Shown here: positions 21,624 to 29,873 of the stretch, piece after piece | Layout of the letters: each line of letters opens with the position of its first letter | How positions within the stretch are numbered: position 1 is the stretch's first letter | From: an uncultured Erysipelotrichaceae bacterium | Lineage (GTDB): Bacteria > Bacillota_I > Bacilli_A > Erysipelotrichales > Erysipelotrichaceae | Length of the DNA stretch: 33,077 nt | Direction of reading: 5' to 3' | Assembly (NCBI GenBank): GCA_902778375.1 | Contig: CACYXJ010000023.1 | Coordinates: 1-33,077 of the forward strand | Notes under the pieces: generated by a model | Told to the model about the DNA's origin: nothing | Databases searched by the model: none | Seen by the model: the letters and a program-made list of their open reading frames with translations, nothing else | Program-made: the position numbers and the translations under genes

Positions 21624-21632
21624 ACAGGGAGG

Positions 21633-21662
21633 GCACAGACAGGGCAGTCTGTGTCTTTTTTT
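21633..21662 (+). terminator. Terminator after the Ntn hydrolase
   Basis: CACAGAC and GTCTGTG form a 7-bp stem with loop AGGGCA, followed by TC and eight T residues. Confidence 0.85.
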
Positions 21663-21729: not shown

Positions 21730-23355
21730 ATGGAGAATTTTAACAGAACATTAAAACTGACCGGTTCATCGATCGATCAGATCTCACATGTCCTCGGACG
21801 GTTCATGAGCGAGACGAAAACGGAACACGCGACCAAGCTGCGCATCCGTCTTTCGATCGAAGAAGCACTGCTGCGAATGCGCGATCATTTCGGCCAGGAT
21901 CAGGAAATCCGGGTGTTCATCGGCCGCATGCTCGGCCGCTATGAATTCCAGGTGGATCTGATCGGGGAGGCGTACAATCCGCTGAGCCTGAAAGACAACG
22001 AGATGGAAAACTGGAGCAGCTCGCTGCTGACCAATATCGGCATGTCTCCTACCTATTACTATTCCGGCGGCCGCAACAAGCTGCGGCTTGTACTGCCGCA
22101 TGAAGGAATGAATCCCGTCTTCAAGCTGCTGATCTGTGTGCTGCTTGGTACACTGTTCGGACTCAGCGGCAAGACATTCCTGCCGCTGGAAGTCAGAATG
22201 ATGATCTCCACCAGCGTCCTGGAACCTCTGTCCACCCTCTGGATGCGGACGCTGACACTGCTTTCCGGACCATTGATCTTCGTCCTGGTTCTGACGACGA
22301 TCCTGAACATGGGAAGAATTGATGTCCAGGGCGGCGACCGCAAAAGGGTGCTGCTCAGATATGTCCTGAACAGTGTCGCTGCCGCTGTCGGAACACTGGT
22401 GGTGATGAATATCCTGCTGCCGCTGACATATCACGCCAATGCCCTGAATGCCAGCGATGTCTCGAGTCTTCTCGATGTACTGTTCCATGTCGTACCCGAG
22501 GATATGATCAATCCGTTTATCGAAGTCAATACCGCCCAGCTGGTCTTCATGGCCATCGTCATCGGCAACGGTATTTCTCTCCTGCGGGGTAACGGTGACC
22601 TTCTTGTCGGTATTGTCAAACAGTTCTACGACCTGGGCCTGATGCTGGCGGACTGGGTCGGTACCGTTGTTCCGTTCTTCGCGGTGTCGCTGCTGACTCT
22701 GGCGTTCTGGAACGGGCAGACCGAGATCTTCAGGAATATGTGGATCCCGTTTCTGATCTTCGCAATACTGAGCGTGATCTTCTCGGTGATAAACATGGTG
22801 CGCCTGAAACTGCGCCGCAAGGTTTCCGTGAGACTGCTCTGGAAGAAACTGAAAAACTCATTTATGGTTACCATCAGGACAGGTTCCCTGAATGAGGCGT
22901 ATACTTATATTGAATCCAGCTGTATCAAATCGCTGGGAATCGACCGTCATTTCACCAAGGCGCTGCTGCCTTCCGGCCTGGTTCTCTATATGCCGGTATC
23001 AACGATCGAACTGGTCGCGTTCTCCATTTACGCAGCCTGGATCCATCACTGCGAGGCATCGTTCGGATGGTATTTCCTGCTGATTTTCCTGGCTGTCGTT
23101 CTGTCGATGGCTTCACCGCCGGTTGCCGGCGTCAGCCTGATCTCGTTCATGACGATCTTCAGCCAGCTGGGGATTCCCTCGGAAGCGCTTGTCGGCGGCA
23201 TGATCGCTGATATCATTCTCGGTATCGCCGCGGGCGGTTTCAACCAGATGATGCTGCAGCTGGAAATGCTGGACGAGGCCGACCGGACAGGTCTGGTAAA
23301 CTACCGTGTCCTTCTGAAGGACAAAGACAAGGAAAAAGGTAATGAGCATGGATGA
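21730..23355 (+). CDS. HATPase-like domain fused to an SDF (dicarboxylate symporter) fold
   Basis: A 541-residue fusion. Residues 1-122 resemble the RsbW/SpoIIAB-type HATPase fold (LRIRLSIEEALLRMRDHFG; LTNIGMSPTYYYSGG; NKLRLVLPH). However, the usual N-box Asn appears replaced by Arg49 and no clear DxGxG box is seen. Residues about 125-530 are hydrophobic and follow the sodium:dicarboxylate symporter order: WMRTLTLLSGPLIFVLVLTTI, then NTAQLVFMAIVIGNGI, IKSLGIDRHFTKALLPSGLV, ASPPVAGVSLISF and a final helix. The NMDGT motif is replaced by YMPVST and the serine-rich HP1 tip is altered, so transport may be lost or changed. It could be a membrane sensor. First gene of a five-gene operon; overlaps the next by 14 bases. 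Confidence 0.75.
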   Translation: MENFNRTLKLTGSSIDQISHVLGRFMSETKTEHATKLRIRLSIEEALLRMRDHFGQDQEIRVFIGRMLGRYEFQVDLIGEAYNPLSLKDNEMENWSSSLLTNIGMSPTYYYSGGRNKLRLVLPHEGMNPVFKLLICVLLGTLFGLSGKTFLPLEVRMMISTSVLEPLSTLWMRTLTLLSGPLIFVLVLTTILNMGRIDVQGGDRKRVLLRYVLNSVAAAVGTLVVMNILLPLTYHANALNASDVSSLLDVLFHVVPEDMINPFIEVNTAQLVFMAIVIGNGISLLRGNGDLLVGIVKQFYDLGLMLADWVGTVVPFFAVSLLTLAFWNGQTEIFRNMWIPFLIFAILSVIFSVINMVRLKLRRKVSVRLLWKKLKNSFMVTIRTGSLNEAYTYIESSCIKSLGIDRHFTKALLPSGLVLYMPVSTIELVAFSIYAAWIHHCEASFGWYFLLIFLAVVLSMASPPVAGVSLISFMTIFSQLGIPSEALVGGMIADIILGIAAGGFNQMMLQLEMLDEADRTGLVNYRVLLKDKDKEKGNEHG

Positions 23356-24766
23356 CAAAAGACAACTTGCGGACCAGCTGATCGAATACTGCCGCAAAAA
23401 TGCCGACAGCAATCTGGAAGTCACGGAAAGCCGTTCTGACGACGCTGTCAGCCTGCAGCTGAAAAGCGACAATGTTACCGGTGTGGTAACCGTGTTTTTC
23501 CTTCAGTACACGATCGCTGAATACCGGATCCTCGACAGTGATTCGGAAACAGTCTTCTATCTGCACTTCGAACTGGAAGATCTCGACCACGCCGAAGAGC
23601 TCTATCATGAGATGCTGGAAAGCCTGCGGAAGCTCAACAAATCGAAAACAACCGAGGTTCTGCTGTGCTGCTCCTGCGGACTTACAACTTCATACTTCAC
23701 GATCAAGCTGAACGAATCGGCGGAGACGATGGGTGTCAAAACGCATTTCGAAGCAGTGCCGTACGAACAACTGTACGATGCCGCTGCCGACAAGGATGTG
23801 ATTCTGATCGCACCGCAGATCGGCTACCAGCTGAAAAACGCGAAGTCGATCCTTTCCGACAAGATCGTCACCGAAATTCCGGTGCAGATCTTCTCGAATT
23901 ACGATGTGCTGGGACTGCTCAACATGGTCCGTGACCTGACCGAGAAAAAGGAAGAAGAAGCCGCAGAGGAAAAACCGGAAACGGTATACAGTGTCAAAAA
24001 GCTGGAGGATGCCGACGGAACGCTTCTTGTCGTATCGATCGTTGACCTCGAACAGAGAACACAGCTGGCCTACCGTCTCTACGATCACGGCCATATCACA
24101 GCATCCAACCAGATCGTCAAGGACAGATACCGCTTCTCGGATGTCAAGGACGTCATTTCCCTGGTCAAGACGATGAACCCGCAGATCAATGCCATCTGTC
24201 TGGTAACACCGGGATCGGTCAGCGACGGAAAGCTGACATACGAAAAGGCGAACATCTTCAACGAGGATATCAAGGAAAGCCTGGAAGACGAATACGGGAC
24301 AAAGGTCTGGCTGATGAACTTCATCGATGCTGTCGTCCTGGGCTATGCGACAACGGAAAAGGAGGGTGAGGACACCGCGTTCTACTTCCTGCCGACAGGT
24401 TCGTATCTCGGCAATATCGGCATGGTCGTCAACAACCGGCTGGTGCATCACTCCGCCCATATGGGAGGCAGACAGCTGGACGGCATCTCGACCATCACCA
24501 CATTCCCGCAGAATCCCTACACTCTGGCGGCAACACCGGAAGGCAACGTCGAACTGGCAGCCCGCTTTCTGACCGGACTGATTACCTATACCGGCTGCGA
24601 CCATGTGGCTTTCTATGCCAAACGCATTCCCGATCCCGAGGAACTGCGCCGCAAGATCGGCACATTCCTGGAAGAGGAATATATCCCCGTACTGCACAAA
24701 GTTGACAGTATCCGCGAGTATCTGTACACAGGTGCTCTGAAATATATGGAAGGACAGGTTGAATGA
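23342..24766 (+). CDS. PTS EIIB-like domain fused to a ROK/ASKHA-like domain
   Basis: A 474-residue soluble protein with three parts. Residues 1-100 are an unrecognised alpha/beta domain. Residues about 104-195 match the lactose/cellobiose-type EIIB fold: VLLCCSCGLTTSYF gives the C-x-x-G-x-[ST]-[ST] loop with Cys110 as the expected phospho-site, followed by VILIAPQIGYQLKNAK. Residues about 220-470 resemble ROK/actin-like sugar kinases or ROK sensors (ICLVTPGSVSDG, NIFNEDIKESLEDEYG, GNIGMVVNNRLVHHSAHMGG), but a typical DxGGT phosphate loop is not evident. It may sense sugars or PTS phosphorylation rather than catalyse. It overlaps genes on both sides, so coupling is tight. ATG at 23342 or 23348. 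Confidence 0.7.
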   Translation: MSMDDKRQLADQLIEYCRKNADSNLEVTESRSDDAVSLQLKSDNVTGVVTVFFLQYTIAEYRILDSDSETVFYLHFELEDLDHAEELYHEMLESLRKLNKSKTTEVLLCCSCGLTTSYFTIKLNESAETMGVKTHFEAVPYEQLYDAAADKDVILIAPQIGYQLKNAKSILSDKIVTEIPVQIFSNYDVLGLLNMVRDLTEKKEEEAAEEKPETVYSVKKLEDADGTLLVVSIVDLEQRTQLAYRLYDHGHITASNQIVKDRYRFSDVKDVISLVKTMNPQINAICLVTPGSVSDGKLTYEKANIFNEDIKESLEDEYGTKVWLMNFIDAVVLGYATTEKEGEDTAFYFLPTGSYLGNIGMVVNNRLVHHSAHMGGRQLDGISTITTFPQNPYTLAATPEGNVELAARFLTGLITYTGCDHVAFYAKRIPDPEELRRKIGTFLEEEYIPVLHKVDSIREYLYTGALKYMEGQVE

Positions 24767-25086
24767 TTATGAAAATTGAATTCAAACATGACGACGATCA
24801 GCTGACGGCGGCGATTTCCGGCCGTATCGACACGAACAGCGCACCGGAGGCTGAGGAACAGATCCTCAACCAGCTGGATGGTGTGAAAAAACTGGTTCTT
24901 GATTTTAAGGAAGTTGATTACATATCTTCAGCAGGTCTTCGTGTTCTCCTTCTTCTGCACAAGCAGATGCTTGCCGAAGAAGGCCTGACGATCATCAACA
25001 TCAATGAGACTGTCAGGGAAGTTCTTGAAATTACCGGCTTTCTTGACATTCTGAATGTCGAAGAGAATACAGTAGAGGAAAGCTGA
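24763..25086 (+). CDS. STAS-domain anti-sigma factor antagonist-like protein
   Basis: A 107-residue single STAS domain of the RsbV/SpoIIAA type. Such proteins release a partner from a kinase when unphosphorylated. The phospho-site motif YISSAGLRVLLLL is intact; by alignment with DSTGL/DSSGL the target is Ser56. The ATG at 24763 overlaps the previous stop, and a second in-frame ATG at 24769 is better spaced from the GGACAGG site, so the start is uncertain by two codons. The stop shares a base with the phosphatase start (TGATG). Its kinase could be the HATPase part of the next protein or of the transporter fusion; no sigma factor is encoded nearby. Confidence 0.9.
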   Translation: MIMKIEFKHDDDQLTAAISGRIDTNSAPEAEEQILNQLDGVKKLVLDFKEVDYISSAGLRVLLLLHKQMLAEEGLTIININETVREVLEITGFLDILNVEENTVEES

Positions 25087-27245
25087 TGACAGCTGCAAAC
25101 CCTCAGGAATGGACGTTTTTTCAGCGGCTGAAATACTCGCTCGGCGCCAAAGTGTTCCGCAGGGTTTTCGCATTTACATTGATTCTTTCCTTTTATGCGG
25201 CAGGTATCGGTCTGGCGCTGTATACCGGTGCGGTCACGGGTGAATATGCCCGAACCACATTCCATGCCGCGAAGATCGTATGGAACACGATCGACAGAGA
25301 AGCTGCTCTGAGATATATCGACAGCATCTTCGAACTGTATAACCGGAAGATTCCTCCCACCTCCAATCCGATAACCACGGATTTTGAGGGCAAGCCGTAT
25401 TATGATCCGGATTATCTGAGGGAAGCCGCTTCCTACTGCGATGAGCAGTATTATGAGATCCAGGATTATATGAAGAAGATCTGCCAGAGCTCTGATGTGG
25501 ATTCCCTCAGCATCGCGGTATTCGACAGGGCCAACAGCAGGATGCTTACAGTCATCGAATCCGATCTTGAATATGAACCGATGGTGGCAGGCGCCTATTC
25601 GGAATTCCGCCGGGAGGATGTGATTGACGTCGCGGCGAACGATAGCACCAACCGTTTTCTGATCATGCCCAGCGACAGATTCAATCTTGTCGTATCAAGC
25701 TCCTATGTCATCAGGAACGACAGGGATTATGTGTACGCGGTATTCTGTGATGTTGAAATCGGCAGAATCCTCGTCGAAGCATGTCAATTCATGCTGTTCT
25801 ACATCATGATCCTGATGATCGTTTCCCTGATCGTCACACTGACGTTTGTCTGGTATATGAACCGTCAGGTCGTCAAACCGATCGACAAACTGACCAAGGC
25901 TGCCGGCAGTTACACACATGACAGGGAAACAGGAAATATGAGCCAGGGACATTTCCGGCAGATAGGTATCCGGACCGGAGATGAGATCGAGAATCTTGCC
26001 AATGTCCTGGATGGCATGGAAATGGAAATCAGCGAGTATTATGATCACCTGATGGAATCGTTCCGTCAGCAGCAGCGTCTGAATTCGGAAATGGAAATCG
26101 CGGAAAGGATCCAGCAGGGAACTCTGCCGAGCATCTTCCCGCCGTTCCCGGATTACACATCCGTATTCGACATCTATGCCCTGATGGACCCGGCCAAGGA
26201 AGTAGGCGGTGACTTCTACGACTTCTTCTTCCTGAACGACGACCAGCTGGTATTCCTGATTGCCGATGTTTCCGGCAAGGGCATCCCGGGCGCCCTGTTC
26301 ATGATGATTTCCAAGATCATGCTGTACAACAACAGCAAGATGATCGGACCTGATCCGGCACTGATCCTGGAGGCGGTCAACAGCAACATCAACGTCAGCA
26401 ATCCGGCGGAAATGTTCGTTACTGTATGGCTCGGCATCCTCGATCTCAAGACCGGAAAACTTGTCGCTGCCAATGCCGGTCACGAATATCCGTTCATCCA
26501 GAAAGCCGGCGGACAGTTCGAACTGCTGAAAGACAAGCATGGATTTGTCATCGGCGGCATGGATGAATTCAAATACAAGAATTACGAGATTCAGATGGAA
26601 CCCGGCGATGCCATCTTCGTCTACACGGACGGCGCTCCCGAGGCACTGAATACCGGGGATGAAATGTTCGGCACGGAACGCATCGGCGAAGCGCTGAACA
26701 GGGATCCGGAAAGAAACATGAAAGATCTGCTCAATGACGTGAAGAACAGTGTCAATGTCTTCAGCGAAGGAACCGAGCAGTTCGATGATATTACGATGCT
26801 AGGTCTGCGATACCATGGAGATACCGATATGCATGAAATGACGATTGAAGCTACATTGGAGAGTATTCCCGAAGTGACAGCCTTTGTCGACCGGAAACTG
26901 GAACAGGTTTCCTGTCCCGTCAAGGCAATCAAACAGATCAATATTGCCATTGATGAACTGTTCAGCAATATTGCCCACTATGCCTACAAACCGGAAACAG
27001 GTCCGGCCACTGTCCGGGTGGAAGTGGAAAAGGACCCGATGACGGTTGTCATCACCTTTATCGACAACGGACGTCCTTATGATCCGCTGTCCAACGGTGA
27101 TCCCGATGTTTCGCTGTCGGCGGAAGAAAGGGAAGTAGGCGGTCTGGGAATTTTCCTGGTGCGCAAGATGATGGACGAAGTGACCTATGAATATAAGGAC
27201 GGTAAAAATATTCTGCGGGTCAGACAGGTAATCAAAAACAACTGA
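25086..27245 (+). CDS. Membrane HAMP-PP2C (SpoIIE type)-HATPase sensor protein
   Basis: A 719-residue protein combining phosphatase and kinase-like parts. TM1 lies about 26-48, an extracytoplasmic domain about 50-228 (predicted sensor), TM2 about 233-257 and HAMP about 258-320. A short coiled coil (SEMEIAERIQQGTLPS) leads into a PP2C domain with KEVGGDFYDFF (Asp376), VSGKGIPGALFMM, ANAGHEYPFI, YTDGAPEA and FDDITML (Asp567/Asp568), all metal-site motifs. A C-terminal HATPase domain (about 585-719) carries the N-box INIAIDELFSNIAHYAY, FIDNGRPYDPL and VGGLGIFLVRKMMDEV. It probably dephosphorylates and/or phosphorylates the two STAS proteins in response to an outside signal. It starts at the TGATG overlap with the STAS gene. 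Confidence 0.92.
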   Translation: MTAANPQEWTFFQRLKYSLGAKVFRRVFAFTLILSFYAAGIGLALYTGAVTGEYARTTFHAAKIVWNTIDREAALRYIDSIFELYNRKIPPTSNPITTDFEGKPYYDPDYLREAASYCDEQYYEIQDYMKKICQSSDVDSLSIAVFDRANSRMLTVIESDLEYEPMVAGAYSEFRREDVIDVAANDSTNRFLIMPSDRFNLVVSSSYVIRNDRDYVYAVFCDVEIGRILVEACQFMLFYIMILMIVSLIVTLTFVWYMNRQVVKPIDKLTKAAGSYTHDRETGNMSQGHFRQIGIRTGDEIENLANVLDGMEMEISEYYDHLMESFRQQQRLNSEMEIAERIQQGTLPSIFPPFPDYTSVFDIYALMDPAKEVGGDFYDFFFLNDDQLVFLIADVSGKGIPGALFMMISKIMLYNNSKMIGPDPALILEAVNSNINVSNPAEMFVTVWLGILDLKTGKLVAANAGHEYPFIQKAGGQFELLKDKHGFVIGGMDEFKYKNYEIQMEPGDAIFVYTDGAPEALNTGDEMFGTERIGEALNRDPERNMKDLLNDVKNSVNVFSEGTEQFDDITMLGLRYHGDTDMHEMTIEATLESIPEVTAFVDRKLEQVSCPVKAIKQINIAIDELFSNIAHYAYKPETGPATVRVEVEKDPMTVVITFIDNGRPYDPLSNGDPDVSLSAEEREVGGLGIFLVRKMMDEVTYEYKDGKNILRVRQVIKNN

Positions 27246-27279
27246 CGAGATTTCAATGAGGATACGATAGGAGAAGAAT

Positions 27280-28464
27280 ATGAGCTTGATTGATACAAAA
27301 AGAGACGGAGAGAAAGCAACGATTTTCCTGAAGGGACATATCGATTCCAACAATGCCGCCGATGTCGAAGCGGAAATCAGAGCATTTCTTGAAGATTCCG
27401 GTACCGTCAAACTGACGATCGATGCCGATGAACTGGAATACATTTCCAGTGCCGGTCTGCGTATTATCCTGCGCCTGCGCAAGGAATATCCGGATCTCAG
27501 CATCATCAATGTCTGCAAGGACGTCTATGAAGTTTTCGAAATGACAGGCTTTACGGAAATGGTTTCGATTCAGAAGGCTTACCGCAGGATCTCGGTGGAA
27601 GGCTGCGAGGTCATCGGCCAGGGTGCCAACGGCAAGGTATACCGCATCGATCCCGACACGATCGTCAAGGTATACCTGGACAGCGATTCCCTGCCGGATA
27701 TCGAACGTGAACGCGAACTGGCCAGAAAGGCTTTCGTCCTCGGTATTCCGACCGCCATTCCTTATGATGTCGTCAGGGTTGACCAGAGCTACGGTTCGGT
27801 ATTCGAACTGCTGAATGCGAAATCCTTCATCAAACTGATTATCGAGGACCCGTCCCGTGTTGACGAGGTTGTCAGAATGTCTGTCGACCTTCTGAAGAAG
27901 ATACATGAAACGGTTGTCAAACCGGATGACATGCCGGATATGAAAGCCATTGCCGTCGACTGGGCGGAATACCTGCAGGACTATCTGCCGGAAGATGAAT
28001 TTCAGAAACTGCACGCGCTGATCACAGCTGTTCCGGATGACAATCACATGATGCATGGCGACTATCATCTGAAGAACGTCATGCTGCAGGGGGATGAAGC
28101 GCTGCTGATCGATATGGACACGATCTGCCGCGGCCATCCGGTCTTTGAATTCGCATCTGTCTTCAATGCCTACAAAGGATATATCGAACTGGAACCGGGA
28201 GATTTCAATCACTTCCTCGGCATTCCCGTCGACACCTGCAATGAAATCTATGAGAAGACACTGCAGTACTATTTTGATGACAAGACACCTGAGGAAATCG
28301 CGGAAATCTCAAAGAAGGCGCAGATCGTCGGTTATACCCGCATCATGCGCCGGACGATCCGCCGCGGCGGCCTCGACGATGAAAAGGGCAGAGGACAGAT
28401 CGAATGCTGCCGCAAACATTTGCACGAACTGCTTGCCGAAGTCGACTCGCTGCTCTGGGACTGA
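27280..28464 (+). CDS. STAS domain fused to aminoglycoside phosphotransferase-type kinase
   Basis: A 394-residue fusion. Residues 1-105 form a STAS domain whose motif YISSAGLRIIL keeps the candidate phosphoserine Ser57. Residues about 108-390 are an APH/choline-kinase-like fold: the nucleotide loop GQGANGKVYRI, the IVKVY lysine strand, HGDYHLKN (His259-Asp261-Asn266) and IDMDT (Asp278/Asp280). The kinase part resembles a family (TIGR02172, from memory) of unknown substrate. AGGAGAAG precedes ATG 27280, 35 bases after the phosphatase gene. It closes the operon before a strong terminator. I infer that phosphorylation of the STAS part may control the kinase. Confidence 0.85.
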   Translation: MSLIDTKRDGEKATIFLKGHIDSNNAADVEAEIRAFLEDSGTVKLTIDADELEYISSAGLRIILRLRKEYPDLSIINVCKDVYEVFEMTGFTEMVSIQKAYRRISVEGCEVIGQGANGKVYRIDPDTIVKVYLDSDSLPDIERERELARKAFVLGIPTAIPYDVVRVDQSYGSVFELLNAKSFIKLIIEDPSRVDEVVRMSVDLLKKIHETVVKPDDMPDMKAIAVDWAEYLQDYLPEDEFQKLHALITAVPDDNHMMHGDYHLKNVMLQGDEALLIDMDTICRGHPVFEFASVFNAYKGYIELEPGDFNHFLGIPVDTCNEIYEKTLQYYFDDKTPEEIAEISKKAQIVGYTRIMRRTIRRGGLDDEKGRGQIECCRKHLHELLAEVDSLLWD

Positions 28465-28485: not shown

Positions 28486-28509
28486 AAAAAAGGAGCCATG
28501 GCTCCTTTT
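28486..28509. terminator. Bidirectional terminator between convergent genes
   Basis: AAAAGGAGCC and GGCTCCTTTT form a 10-bp perfect stem around AT (28488-28509), with A-runs on one side and T-runs on the other. It serves both the operon ending at 28464 and the minus-strand gene ending at 28509. Confidence 0.9.
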
Positions 28510-28823: not shown

Positions 28824-29750
28824 TTATTTGTTCTTCATCAGCGCGTTGAGAATGCTGAAGAGAGTGCCGACATTGACCTGGCCGTTGCTGTTGACGGTGT
28901 TGGACGGAGCCTGGTTCAGAATGCTGTAAAGAGACGACAGCGGTGACTGCTGGACGTTGTTACCGCTGATGAAATTGAAGAGACTGTTCTGGGCGTTGCT
29001 GTAATTGTTCTGATTGCCGCCGAGACCGAACAGGGAAAGCAGGCTGTTGGAGCCGCTTGTTCCGGTAGTTCCCTGGTTGCCGTAGATGGTATATACGTTG
29101 GTGTTCGGCTGCTGGCTGGATCCGAACAGTGTGCCAAACAGGTTATTGCCATAGACAGGTGTCTGCTGCTGTTGCTGTGGGGTTCCGAACAGATACTGCA
29201 GCGGATTGGACGGTGTCTGCTGTTGCTGCGGCTGCGTAGTTCCGAAGAGGGACTGCAGCGGGTTTGCGGGTGTCTGCTGCTGCGGCTGGGCCGTTCCGAA
29301 GAGGGACTGCAGCGGATTATTATTTGCGGTTGTCGCCGTCTGGGTCTGGTTCTTTTTCTTGAACAGCTTGAGCAGCAGGATGATCAGCAGGATTTCCTTG
29401 AGGTCCAGTTTGCCGTCGAACAGAGCCCGCAGGGCAGTATTGTCCTTGGAAACTTCAGAACCTTCGAGACCGCCGGCATATTCGAGCAGTTCGCCGGCAT
29501 CGATCGTTCCGTCGGATGCCTTGTACAGTTTGAAGAGATTGTTGTTTTCCAGTTCCTTCATGACTTCGTTTACTTCCTGATCGCTGGCATCCTGGCCGAG
29601 AATCTCTTTCAGCGCGTCAGCTACGGCAGAATCGGAAAGTCCGGGCATTGCCCTGGTCGGAGCAGCTTCCTTGTTTTCAGCATCGCTGATCGCCGAAAGC
29701 AGGGAAGGATCCTTGCGGATGGCTTTATAAAGCTCATTGATTTTTGTCAT
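28824..29750 (-). CDS. Gln/Asn-rich repeat protein, function unknown
   Basis: A 308-residue protein I do not recognise. Residues 1-100 are a helical acidic domain (TKINELYKAIRKDPSLLSAI at the start recalls Nif11-like or other small helical domains, unproven), followed by a short hydrophobic stretch KEILLIILLLKLFKKK. The C-terminal two thirds are low-complexity, rich in Gln, Asn, Ser, Thr and Gly. They contain three tandem 18-19-residue units of type NPLQSLFGTxQPQQQQTP and further SLFG/NLFG motifs. The composition resembles prion-like or phase-separating regions. The frame extends to 29867, but GGAAGGAC before ATG 29750 and the promoter position fix the start. Cotranscribed with DUF4298. Confidence 0.75.
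   Translation of the reverse strand: MTKINELYKAIRKDPSLLSAISDAENKEAAPTRAMPGLSDSAVADALKEILGQDASDQEVNEVMKELENNNLFKLYKASDGTIDAGELLEYAGGLEGSEVSKDNTALRALFDGKLDLKEILLIILLLKLFKKKNQTQTATTANNNPLQSLFGTAQPQQQTPANPLQSLFGTTQPQQQQTPSNPLQYLFGTPQQQQQTPVYGNNLFGTLFGSSQQPNTNVYTIYGNQGTTGTSGSNSLLSLFGLGGNQNNYSNAQNSLFNFISGNNVQQSPLSSLYSILNQAPSNTVNSNGQVNVGTLFSILNALMKNK
29155..29318 (-). repeat. Tandem coding repeats (NPLQSLFGT-polyQ units)
   Basis: Three consecutive DNA units of about 54-57 bases encode NPLQ[SY]LFGT followed by Q-runs and TP. The DNA copies are similar (GACTGCAGCGG and TTCCGAAGAGG recur), so the repeat could vary in copy number by slippage. Confidence 0.85.
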
Positions 29751-29780
29751 TATTATGTCCTTCCTTATTAACTTGATTTC

Positions 29781-29789
29781 ATTATAGCA
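29781..29789 (-). promoter_or_regulatory. Extended -10 promoter of the Gln-rich gene
   Basis: On the minus strand TGCTATAAT is a TGn-extended consensus -10, 30 bases upstream of the start at 29750. No good -35 is seen. Confidence 0.6.
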
Positions 29790-29838
29790 TCGCTGCAGGA
29801 ATGGTGATAAAAATGCTGTTCTTGTTCCCGGCTCCGCC

Positions 29839-29873
29839 TTGACAAAAATTAGTTCGCAACCTAACATTATAAT
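29839..29873 (+). promoter_or_regulatory. marR-ABC operon promoter
   Basis: A consensus TTGACA (29839-29844) with 17 bases leads to TAACAT (29862-29867). A perfect TATAAT (29868-29873) lies six bases further at a poor 23-base distance. Both -10 choices sit inside the MarR operator. Confidence 0.7.

Follow-up and report, generated by a model that had tools for sequence, protein, structure and literature searches.

Partner switching is known mainly as a means of freeing sigma factors: a HATPase kinase phosphorylates a STAS protein, a PP2C phosphatase reverses this modification, and the phosphorylation state sets the choice of partner. What such a switch might control when it is encoded with no sigma factor, together with a transporter-like membrane protein and a protein resembling components of the phosphotransferase system (PTS), is the question raised by a five-gene operon of an uncultured Erysipelotrichaceae bacterium. 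The operon lies in a 33,077-nucleotide stretch of DNA analyzed as a whole (contig CACYXJ010000023.1 of assembly GCA_902778375.1; hereafter the window). Its products comprise a HATPase-like domain joined to an SLC1/SDF domain (A), an EIIB-ROK chain (B), a free-standing STAS protein (C), a membrane sensor that combines PP2C and HATPase domains (D), and a STAS domain fused to an APH-type kinase (E). The best model, with an estimated probability of about 0.5, is a sigma-independent partner switch with an enzyme as its output, in which A acts as a receptor and B as a PTS-responsive input.

The catalytic core formed by C, D, and E looks active, as judged from conserved residues. Among the cassette kinases, including D, the N-box Asn is retained in 54 of 54 sequences, the G1 Asp in 52 of 52, and the last G2 Gly in 54 of 54, while the metal-binding Asp residues of the PP2C motifs GGD, DVSGKG, TDG, and DD occur in every sequence covering them. 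The serine motif is present in all 93 cassette STAS domains (SSAG-type in 91, SSAA in two). D contains two transmembrane segments, at residues 26-50 and 225-260. E scores 63.5 bits against the APH model PF01636 (cut-off 23.2), and the STAS-APH family (24 proteins) shows invariant STAS Ser56/Ser57, APH Lys130, an HGDxHxxN motif at 259-266, and Asp278; its TIGR02172 score of 107.5 bits falls under the curated cut-off of 228.2. No literature was found on TIGR02172 or on STAS combined with APH, although most subscription journals were not covered, so that this is weak evidence of novelty. These conserved residues bear out the partner-switch logic proposed in the initial annotation. Its domain calls (SDF, EIIB, ROK, STAS, PP2C, HATPase, and APH) also stand, with two qualifications: the HATPase domain of A is degenerate, and the HAMP domain of D lies below the Pfam cut-off (E 0.065).

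The absence of a sigma factor, likewise noted at the outset, holds for the operon, and no SigB/F/G-type factor was found in the 92% complete assembly. The assembly contains two region-3 sigma factors, both of which are matched best by RpoD models; against TIGR02980 they reach 128.8 and 127.5 bits, far short of the cut-off of 234.35. The shorter of these RpoD-like factors (L168 and L169; loci are designated by L numbers and genomes by G numbers) has 380 amino acids and directly precedes a release factor 1-like gene. An ordinary sigma switch whose factor is encoded elsewhere in the genome would be in keeping with C, which exceeds the cut-off of the anti-sigma factor antagonist superfamily model TIGR00377. 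However, the RpoD-like character of the region-3 factors and the lack of any sigma gene among the scanned cassette neighbors make a distant cognate factor for A-E unlikely, and this explanation as a whole is highly improbable. Only one further RsbW-like kinase of the genome exceeds the family cut-off besides D, a second PP2C-HATPase protein on another contig (L171, G000:C37); a third protein matched by HATPase_c_2 (L172) has the sequence of an ordinary histidine kinase, and an orphan STAS protein is likewise encoded on a separate contig (L174, G000:C14).

Which of the five genes form the conserved unit can be seen from their distribution. The relatives are nearly all metagenome-assembled genomes (MAGs), and the linkage statistics ignore shared descent. 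Within the window's genus, 47 of 70 genomes encode a STAS-APH protein, as do 12 of 392 in the phylum sample. Sufficient context (7 kb or more) is available for 36 distinct STAS-APH loci; an RsbW-like HATPase is encoded within 6 kb in 33 of these, another STAS protein in 27, a PP2C in 24, A in 12, and B in 10, and every one of these neighbor types has a same-strand copy. B joins such cassettes without A in L149, L151-L154, L157, and L159-L161. The domains themselves are variously split or fused, occurring as PP2C-HATPase chains, lone HATPases (L039-L043, L152, and L154), or STAS-APH-HATPase fusions (L074, L077, and L160-L162). The grouping exceeds chance, as two of the genome's three STAS domains and one of its two RsbW-like kinases lie in this operon, and it recurs in other families. 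The conserved unit is therefore C/D/E, with A and B as optional or alternative additions, so that the five-gene operon described in the initial annotation, which is indeed present here, represents one version among several.

The constancy of E, together with the occurrence in one STAS-APH cassette (L156:2845-3975, - strand) of a Cof-type HAD hydrolase carrying a fused STAS domain, suggests that the APH kinase of E is the output. A common substrate for E was sought among the neighboring genes (HD_4, PHP, HAD, permease, ABC pairs, and MATE) and none emerged, the neighbors being variable. In several relatives a gene of HD_4, the Pfam family of RelA/SpoT-type HD domains, is located between D and E (L036:12783-13211, L166:9230-9673, L108:8175-8744, and L150:6361-6933); it is absent from the 34-nt D/E gap of the window. 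A PHP-domain gene follows the STAS-APH-HATPase fusions in L160 (7072-7941, - strand), L161 (11112-11975), and L162 (9968-10840).

A precedent for an enzymatic output is provided by SiaABCD of Pseudomonas aeruginosa, in which a membrane PP2C and a HATPase balance a STAS-like protein and the output is an enzyme (PMC7647112, PMC8457831). The same partner-switch logic, with an enzyme rather than a sigma factor at its end, appears to apply here, and the best score of D is to the SiaA model (4.8e-22), far below the SiaA cut-off. The SiaABCD output is a diguanylate cyclase, whereas A-E contain no GGDEF domain and would act through an APH-type kinase, with additional transporter-like and EIIB-ROK proteins. 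A REC-EAL-GGDEF gene is found upstream of a C-D-E cassette in L163 (3156-5372), a possible cyclic di-GMP link as in SiaABCD. The RsbU/RsbV/RsbW and SpoIIE/SpoIIAA/SpoIIAB systems share the STAS protein, the HATPase_c_2 serine kinase, the PP2C, and their conserved catalytic residues with A-E; they differ in that no SigB/F/G-type factor was found here, kinase and phosphatase form one chain, and a second STAS domain is fused to APH.

Protein A is unusual. No Pfam model matches its N-terminal domain as HATPase, but residues 1-125 are homologous to the cassette kinases in profile-profile comparison (98.2%, E 4e-14), with control profiles for STAS, EIIB, APH, PP2C, and the N-terminal region of B all below 1%. 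The assignment rests on this comparison because the fold search with whole A was filled by SLC1 chains and is uninformative on the N-terminal domain. In the window protein, the N-box Asn is replaced by Arg, and the G1 Asp and G2 glycines are missing. Across the A family (48 members), the N-box Asn is retained in only 4, and the G1 Asp position is occupied by Leu, Ala, Tyr, Met, or Val, Asp not being among the five commonest letters. The domain is thus, by sequence, a pseudo-kinase. RsbW-type kinases are dimers, and pairs of a pseudo-kinase with a kinase are common. It is accordingly conceivable that A acts on the kinase, its pseudo-HATPase pairing with the HATPase of D to inhibit or activate it and A serving as a membrane-bound regulatory subunit. 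The specific homology to the cassette kinase and the generality of such pairs speak for this option, yet sequence alone cannot tell kinase pairing from STAS binding, and as a complete account of A it is rather unlikely.

The membrane part of A adopts the SLC1 fold (AF2 model with a mean pLDDT of 84.6; VIA Z of 41.5 to 8oui and about 38 to GltPh). Its ligand site has been rebuilt: NMDGT reads YMPVS, and the residues corresponding to D394, R397, and D405 of GltPh are all replaced. Of the canonical SLC1 residues, the window protein and most other members of its clade (26 proteins) retain only one serine of helical hairpin 1 (HP1), the Met of NMDGT, and N401. The A tree contains three groups. In clade I (n=11), NMDGT, the HP1 serines, R397, N401, and D405 are largely canonical, D394 being the exception; a mixed group (n=10) keeps the HP1 serines and D394 but has lost NMDGT and D405; and in the window clade (n=26), HP1 S279, NMDGT, D394, R397, and D405 are replaced. 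The window clade carries a new residue set instead, with M421, P422, L509, Q510, and E512 present in 26 of 26 members and S386, D494, and N505 in 25 of 26.

A reading of A as a decayed transporter was rejected as the main explanation, as the rebuilt site is invariant in 26 proteins from several families; the best-conserved segments of the clade are helical hairpin 2 (HP2), TM8, and TM7, which likewise disfavors decay of the SDF part. The same constraint would suit a working transporter, and A could then be the output, dephosphorylated STAS binding its pseudo-HATPase to open or close an SLC1-type transporter of altered substrate. Consistent with this proposal, the transport core is best conserved, the operon begins with A, and other transporters stand beside cassettes, namely MATE-HATPase proteins (L040 and L164) and xanthine/uracil permeases (L149 and L152). 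Nevertheless, the residues by which canonical transporters bind sodium and substrate have been lost, and A accompanies only 12 of 36 cassettes, the E kinase being the constant partner; since the cassette is commonest without A, A is not its general output. This alternative is unlikely, if less so than direct action on the kinase. Because the residues that canonically bind substrate and sodium are missing from the SDF domain, the suggestion in the initial annotation that the switch controls transport through A is unproven, and A is no less likely to serve as a receptor; the other output suggested there, the APH kinase, is favored. The MATE proteins with a C-terminal HATPase_c_2 domain (L040:30-1814 and L164:5210-6976, both - strand and Pfam checked; L042:2037-3821 is of the same type), which lie beside STAS-APH cassettes, show that fusion to an RsbW-like domain extends to another class of transporter; their N-box, unlike that of A, looks intact. 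In two loci (L065:6483-8020 and L066:8251-9599), the pseudo-HATPase and SDF parts of A are separate open reading frames, as split genes or frameshifts, and in L049 (2036-4998) a paralog of A is directly followed by a TIR-domain gene.

Transporter domains have been recruited for sensing elsewhere. CbrA (SLC5 plus histidine kinase) and the actinobacterial SSS-HATPase_c-PP2C proteins are transporter-fused sensors (PMC7918813, PMC7096432) in which, as in A, a secondary-transporter domain is fused to a signaling domain of the GHKL ATPase type; A differs in its SLC1/SDF fold, its N-terminal and inactive-looking ATPase domain, and its STAS/PP2C operon. In the DctA/DcuS co-sensor, an SDF-family transporter forms part of the sensor, and DctA contacts the STAS-bearing DauA via membrane domains and not via STAS (PMC4280142, PMC5703999). 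Unlike A, DctA is an active C4-dicarboxylate transporter, and its partner is a two-component kinase. Sodium-uncoupled and ancestral SLC1 transporters show altered sodium coupling (PMC12668577); A, whose best PDB sequence match is 9bgz, resembles them in fold and in altered sodium coupling, but it lacks the substrate residues as well and is joined to a signaling domain.

Relatives of A (20-70% identity) occur in 29 of the 70 genus genomes; outside the genus, the class sample contributed a single genome with a full-length relative (G146) and the phylum sample none. When 84,980 species genomes were searched with the A clade to which the window protein belongs, 26 loci emerged; every one derives from a MAG or uncultured record, and Lachnospiraceae, Oscillospiraceae, other Clostridia, and Coriobacteriaceae/Atopobiaceae are among their sources. 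The five-gene order and the flanking genes are retained in the closest relatives, namely L034, L035 (up to its contig end), and L036 (with one additional gene between D and E). Such conservation by itself would be plain synteny, and the stronger evidence comes from loci in which the parts are together but rearranged (in Lachnospiraceae, Oscillospiraceae, and Clostridia): A-C-D-E in L093, A-D-E in L081, A-C-D in L075, A-C followed by a STAS-APH-HATPase fusion in L074, PP2C-C-(STAS-APH-HATPase)-A in L077, A-E-C-HATPase in L040 and L043, and A-C-HATPase-gene-E in L088. The gene-order check called for at the outset thus has a result: the order persists among the closest relatives, and in the more distant records the parts are rearranged but still grouped. 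It might still be argued that A and B are chance neighbors of the C/D/E switch with no role in it, as each is found separated from the cassette in some genomes and the whole region, flanks included, is syntenic in the nearest relatives. Against this stand their association with the cassette in different gene orders on the same strand, the joint occurrence of A and the cassette in distant families (Lachnospiraceae, Oscillospiraceae, and Clostridia records), and the kinase-homologous domain of A; a chance arrangement is correspondingly very improbable, on a par with the ordinary sigma switch or only slightly above it.

Within the genus, STAS-APH is present in 26 of 29 genomes with A and in 21 of 41 without it (Fisher p = 0.0008, uncorrected for relatedness). 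A STAS cassette is linked to 17 of the 26 remodeled A proteins and to none of the 21 other A relatives (Fisher 1.3e-6), a contrast that has no phylogenetic correction, requires eight changes of the label on a quick tree with some long branches, and includes some short contigs. The rebuilt site is thus associated with the cassette. Several points weigh against a receptor-coupled, sigma-free switch. The limits of the contrast just given are one. In addition, for 9 of the 26 remodeled A proteins the available sequence shows no STAS cassette, despite good context in L037, L038, L091, and L092, and A can therefore work without a linked cassette; STAS-APH has no linked kinase in 3 of the 36 loci; and the assembly is incomplete to an extent that a sigma factor may have been missed.

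Protein B matches PTS_IIB (5e-8) and, below threshold, ROK. In its AF2 model (mean pLDDT of 81.9), residues 103-205 fit EIIB-chitobiose (Z of 19.0 to 2wy2) and residues 223-474 fit ROK proteins (Z of 14.9-18.3), with values of about 18 to ManNAc/GlcNAc kinases and 15.9 to Mlc; no domain could be assigned to the first 100 residues, a segment that the fold search hardly tested. Cys110, aligned with the phosphorylated Cys of EIIB-Chb, is invariant in 14 proteins. The ROK part has no DxGGT ATP motif (SIVDLEQRT stands there, in an alignment judged by eye), and the catalytic ND motif reads NF in B of the window and its clade, while ND is retained in many other B proteins. The scanned window genes include no EIIC or EIIA partner, and the genome encodes HPr and two lactose/cellobiose-type EIIA proteins, the latter on other contigs. 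Because the EIIB Cys is invariant and HPr and EIIA genes are present, B could be phosphorylated by the PTS, and the PTS-sensing role first proposed for it is plausible. The Mlc/EIIB complex (3bp8), which is among the structure matches, is similar in that a ROK protein is controlled by a PTS EIIB; B differs in being a single chain with a chitobiose-type EIIB and in that no DNA-binding domain was seen.

In the sigma-independent switch favored here, the D kinase would phosphorylate C, E, or both on their STAS serines, and the D phosphatase, under the control of the outer domain of D, would remove the phosphate. Phosphorylation would set the partner held by each STAS domain and thereby switch the APH kinase of E, which may act on a small molecule or a protein. 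A is envisaged as a transporter-derived membrane receptor whose rebuilt SLC1 site may bind a ligand other than aspartate. Its pseudo-HATPase would hold unphosphorylated STAS, or pair with the kinase domain of D, without phosphorylating, such that the ligand state of A would change the pool of free STAS. B would feed the PTS or sugar state into the switch through its phosphorylatable EIIB and its ROK part, as separate EIIB and Mlc do. The partners, the ligand, and the APH substrate in this scheme are proposed from sequence.

The operon itself consists of five co-directional open reading frames at the coordinates originally given, overlapping or closely spaced (overlaps of 14 nt for A/B, 4 nt for B/C, and 1 nt for C/D; a gap of 34 nt for D/E), and is bracketed by two hairpins (Table 1). 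Of the single promoter and single terminator initially described, the hairpin after E is present, but no sigma-70-like promoter was matched between the upstream gene and A. A Gln/Asn/Pro-rich repetitive protein without a Pfam match is encoded next to the operon (28824-29867, - strand). A role in anti-phage defense was considered and set aside, A-E having no PADLOC match.

Table 1. Features of the operon and its borders (window coordinates).
Feature	Coordinates	Strand	Evidence and remarks
Upstream hairpin with T run	21626..21661	+	Ends asparaginase-like gene; upstream border of operon; RNAfold -18.9 kcal/mol
A: pseudo-HATPase and SLC1/SDF transporter-like membrane domain	21730..23355	+	Pfam SDF 8.8e-35; AF2; 47-member alignment
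A residues 1-125: degenerate RsbW-like HATPase	21730..22104	+	Profile-profile comparison, residue counts, alignment
A residues 131-523: SDF with remodeled ligand site	22120..23298	+	Pfam, structure match, residue comparison
B: unassigned N-terminal domain, lactose/chitobiose-type EIIB, ROK fold	23342..24766	+	
B residues 103-205: EIIB with invariant Cys110	23648..23956	+	VIA Z 19.0 to EIIB-Chb 2wy2
B residues 223-474: ROK fold, ATP motif lost	24008..24763	+	VIA Z, alignment
C: free-standing STAS, SSAG motif, Ser56 expected phosphosite	24763..25086	+	Pfam STAS 5e-18; TIGR00377
D: two-transmembrane sensor, weak HAMP, PP2C, and RsbW-like kinase in one chain	25086..27245	+	Pfam, transmembrane prediction
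D residues 385-576: PP2C (SpoIIE) phosphatase	26238..26813	+	Pfam SpoIIE 3.8e-42
D residues 587-713: active-looking HATPase_c_2 serine kinase	26844..27224	+	Pfam 1.8e-23, conserved residues
E: STAS fused to APH-type kinase	27280..28464	+	Pfam APH 3.3e-17, STAS 5.8e-11
Hairpin after E	28488..28509	.	Likely terminator common to convergent gene; RNAfold -11.6 kcal/mol; scan match on - strand

Somewhat doubtful as a whole, and offered tentatively, is the more specific proposal that a former sodium-coupled amino-acid transporter has been turned into a receptor with a rebuilt ligand site, that the RsbW-type kinase domain joined to it has become a pseudo-kinase on which STAS proteins dock, that the switch in turn drives a STAS-tethered APH kinase in a class of sigma-free systems of gut and rumen bacteria, and that the A family keeps the intermediate stages of this change in its canonical, half-lost, and rebuilt sites. 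If true, this would be a widespread form of partner switching that informs a small kinase directly of the state of membrane and sugar supply, and living relatives would still display the presumed stages in the conversion of a transporter into a receptor. Two questions thereby become testable, namely what the targets of STAS-APH kinases may be and whether an inactive RsbW-like domain is able to act as a receptor for STAS.

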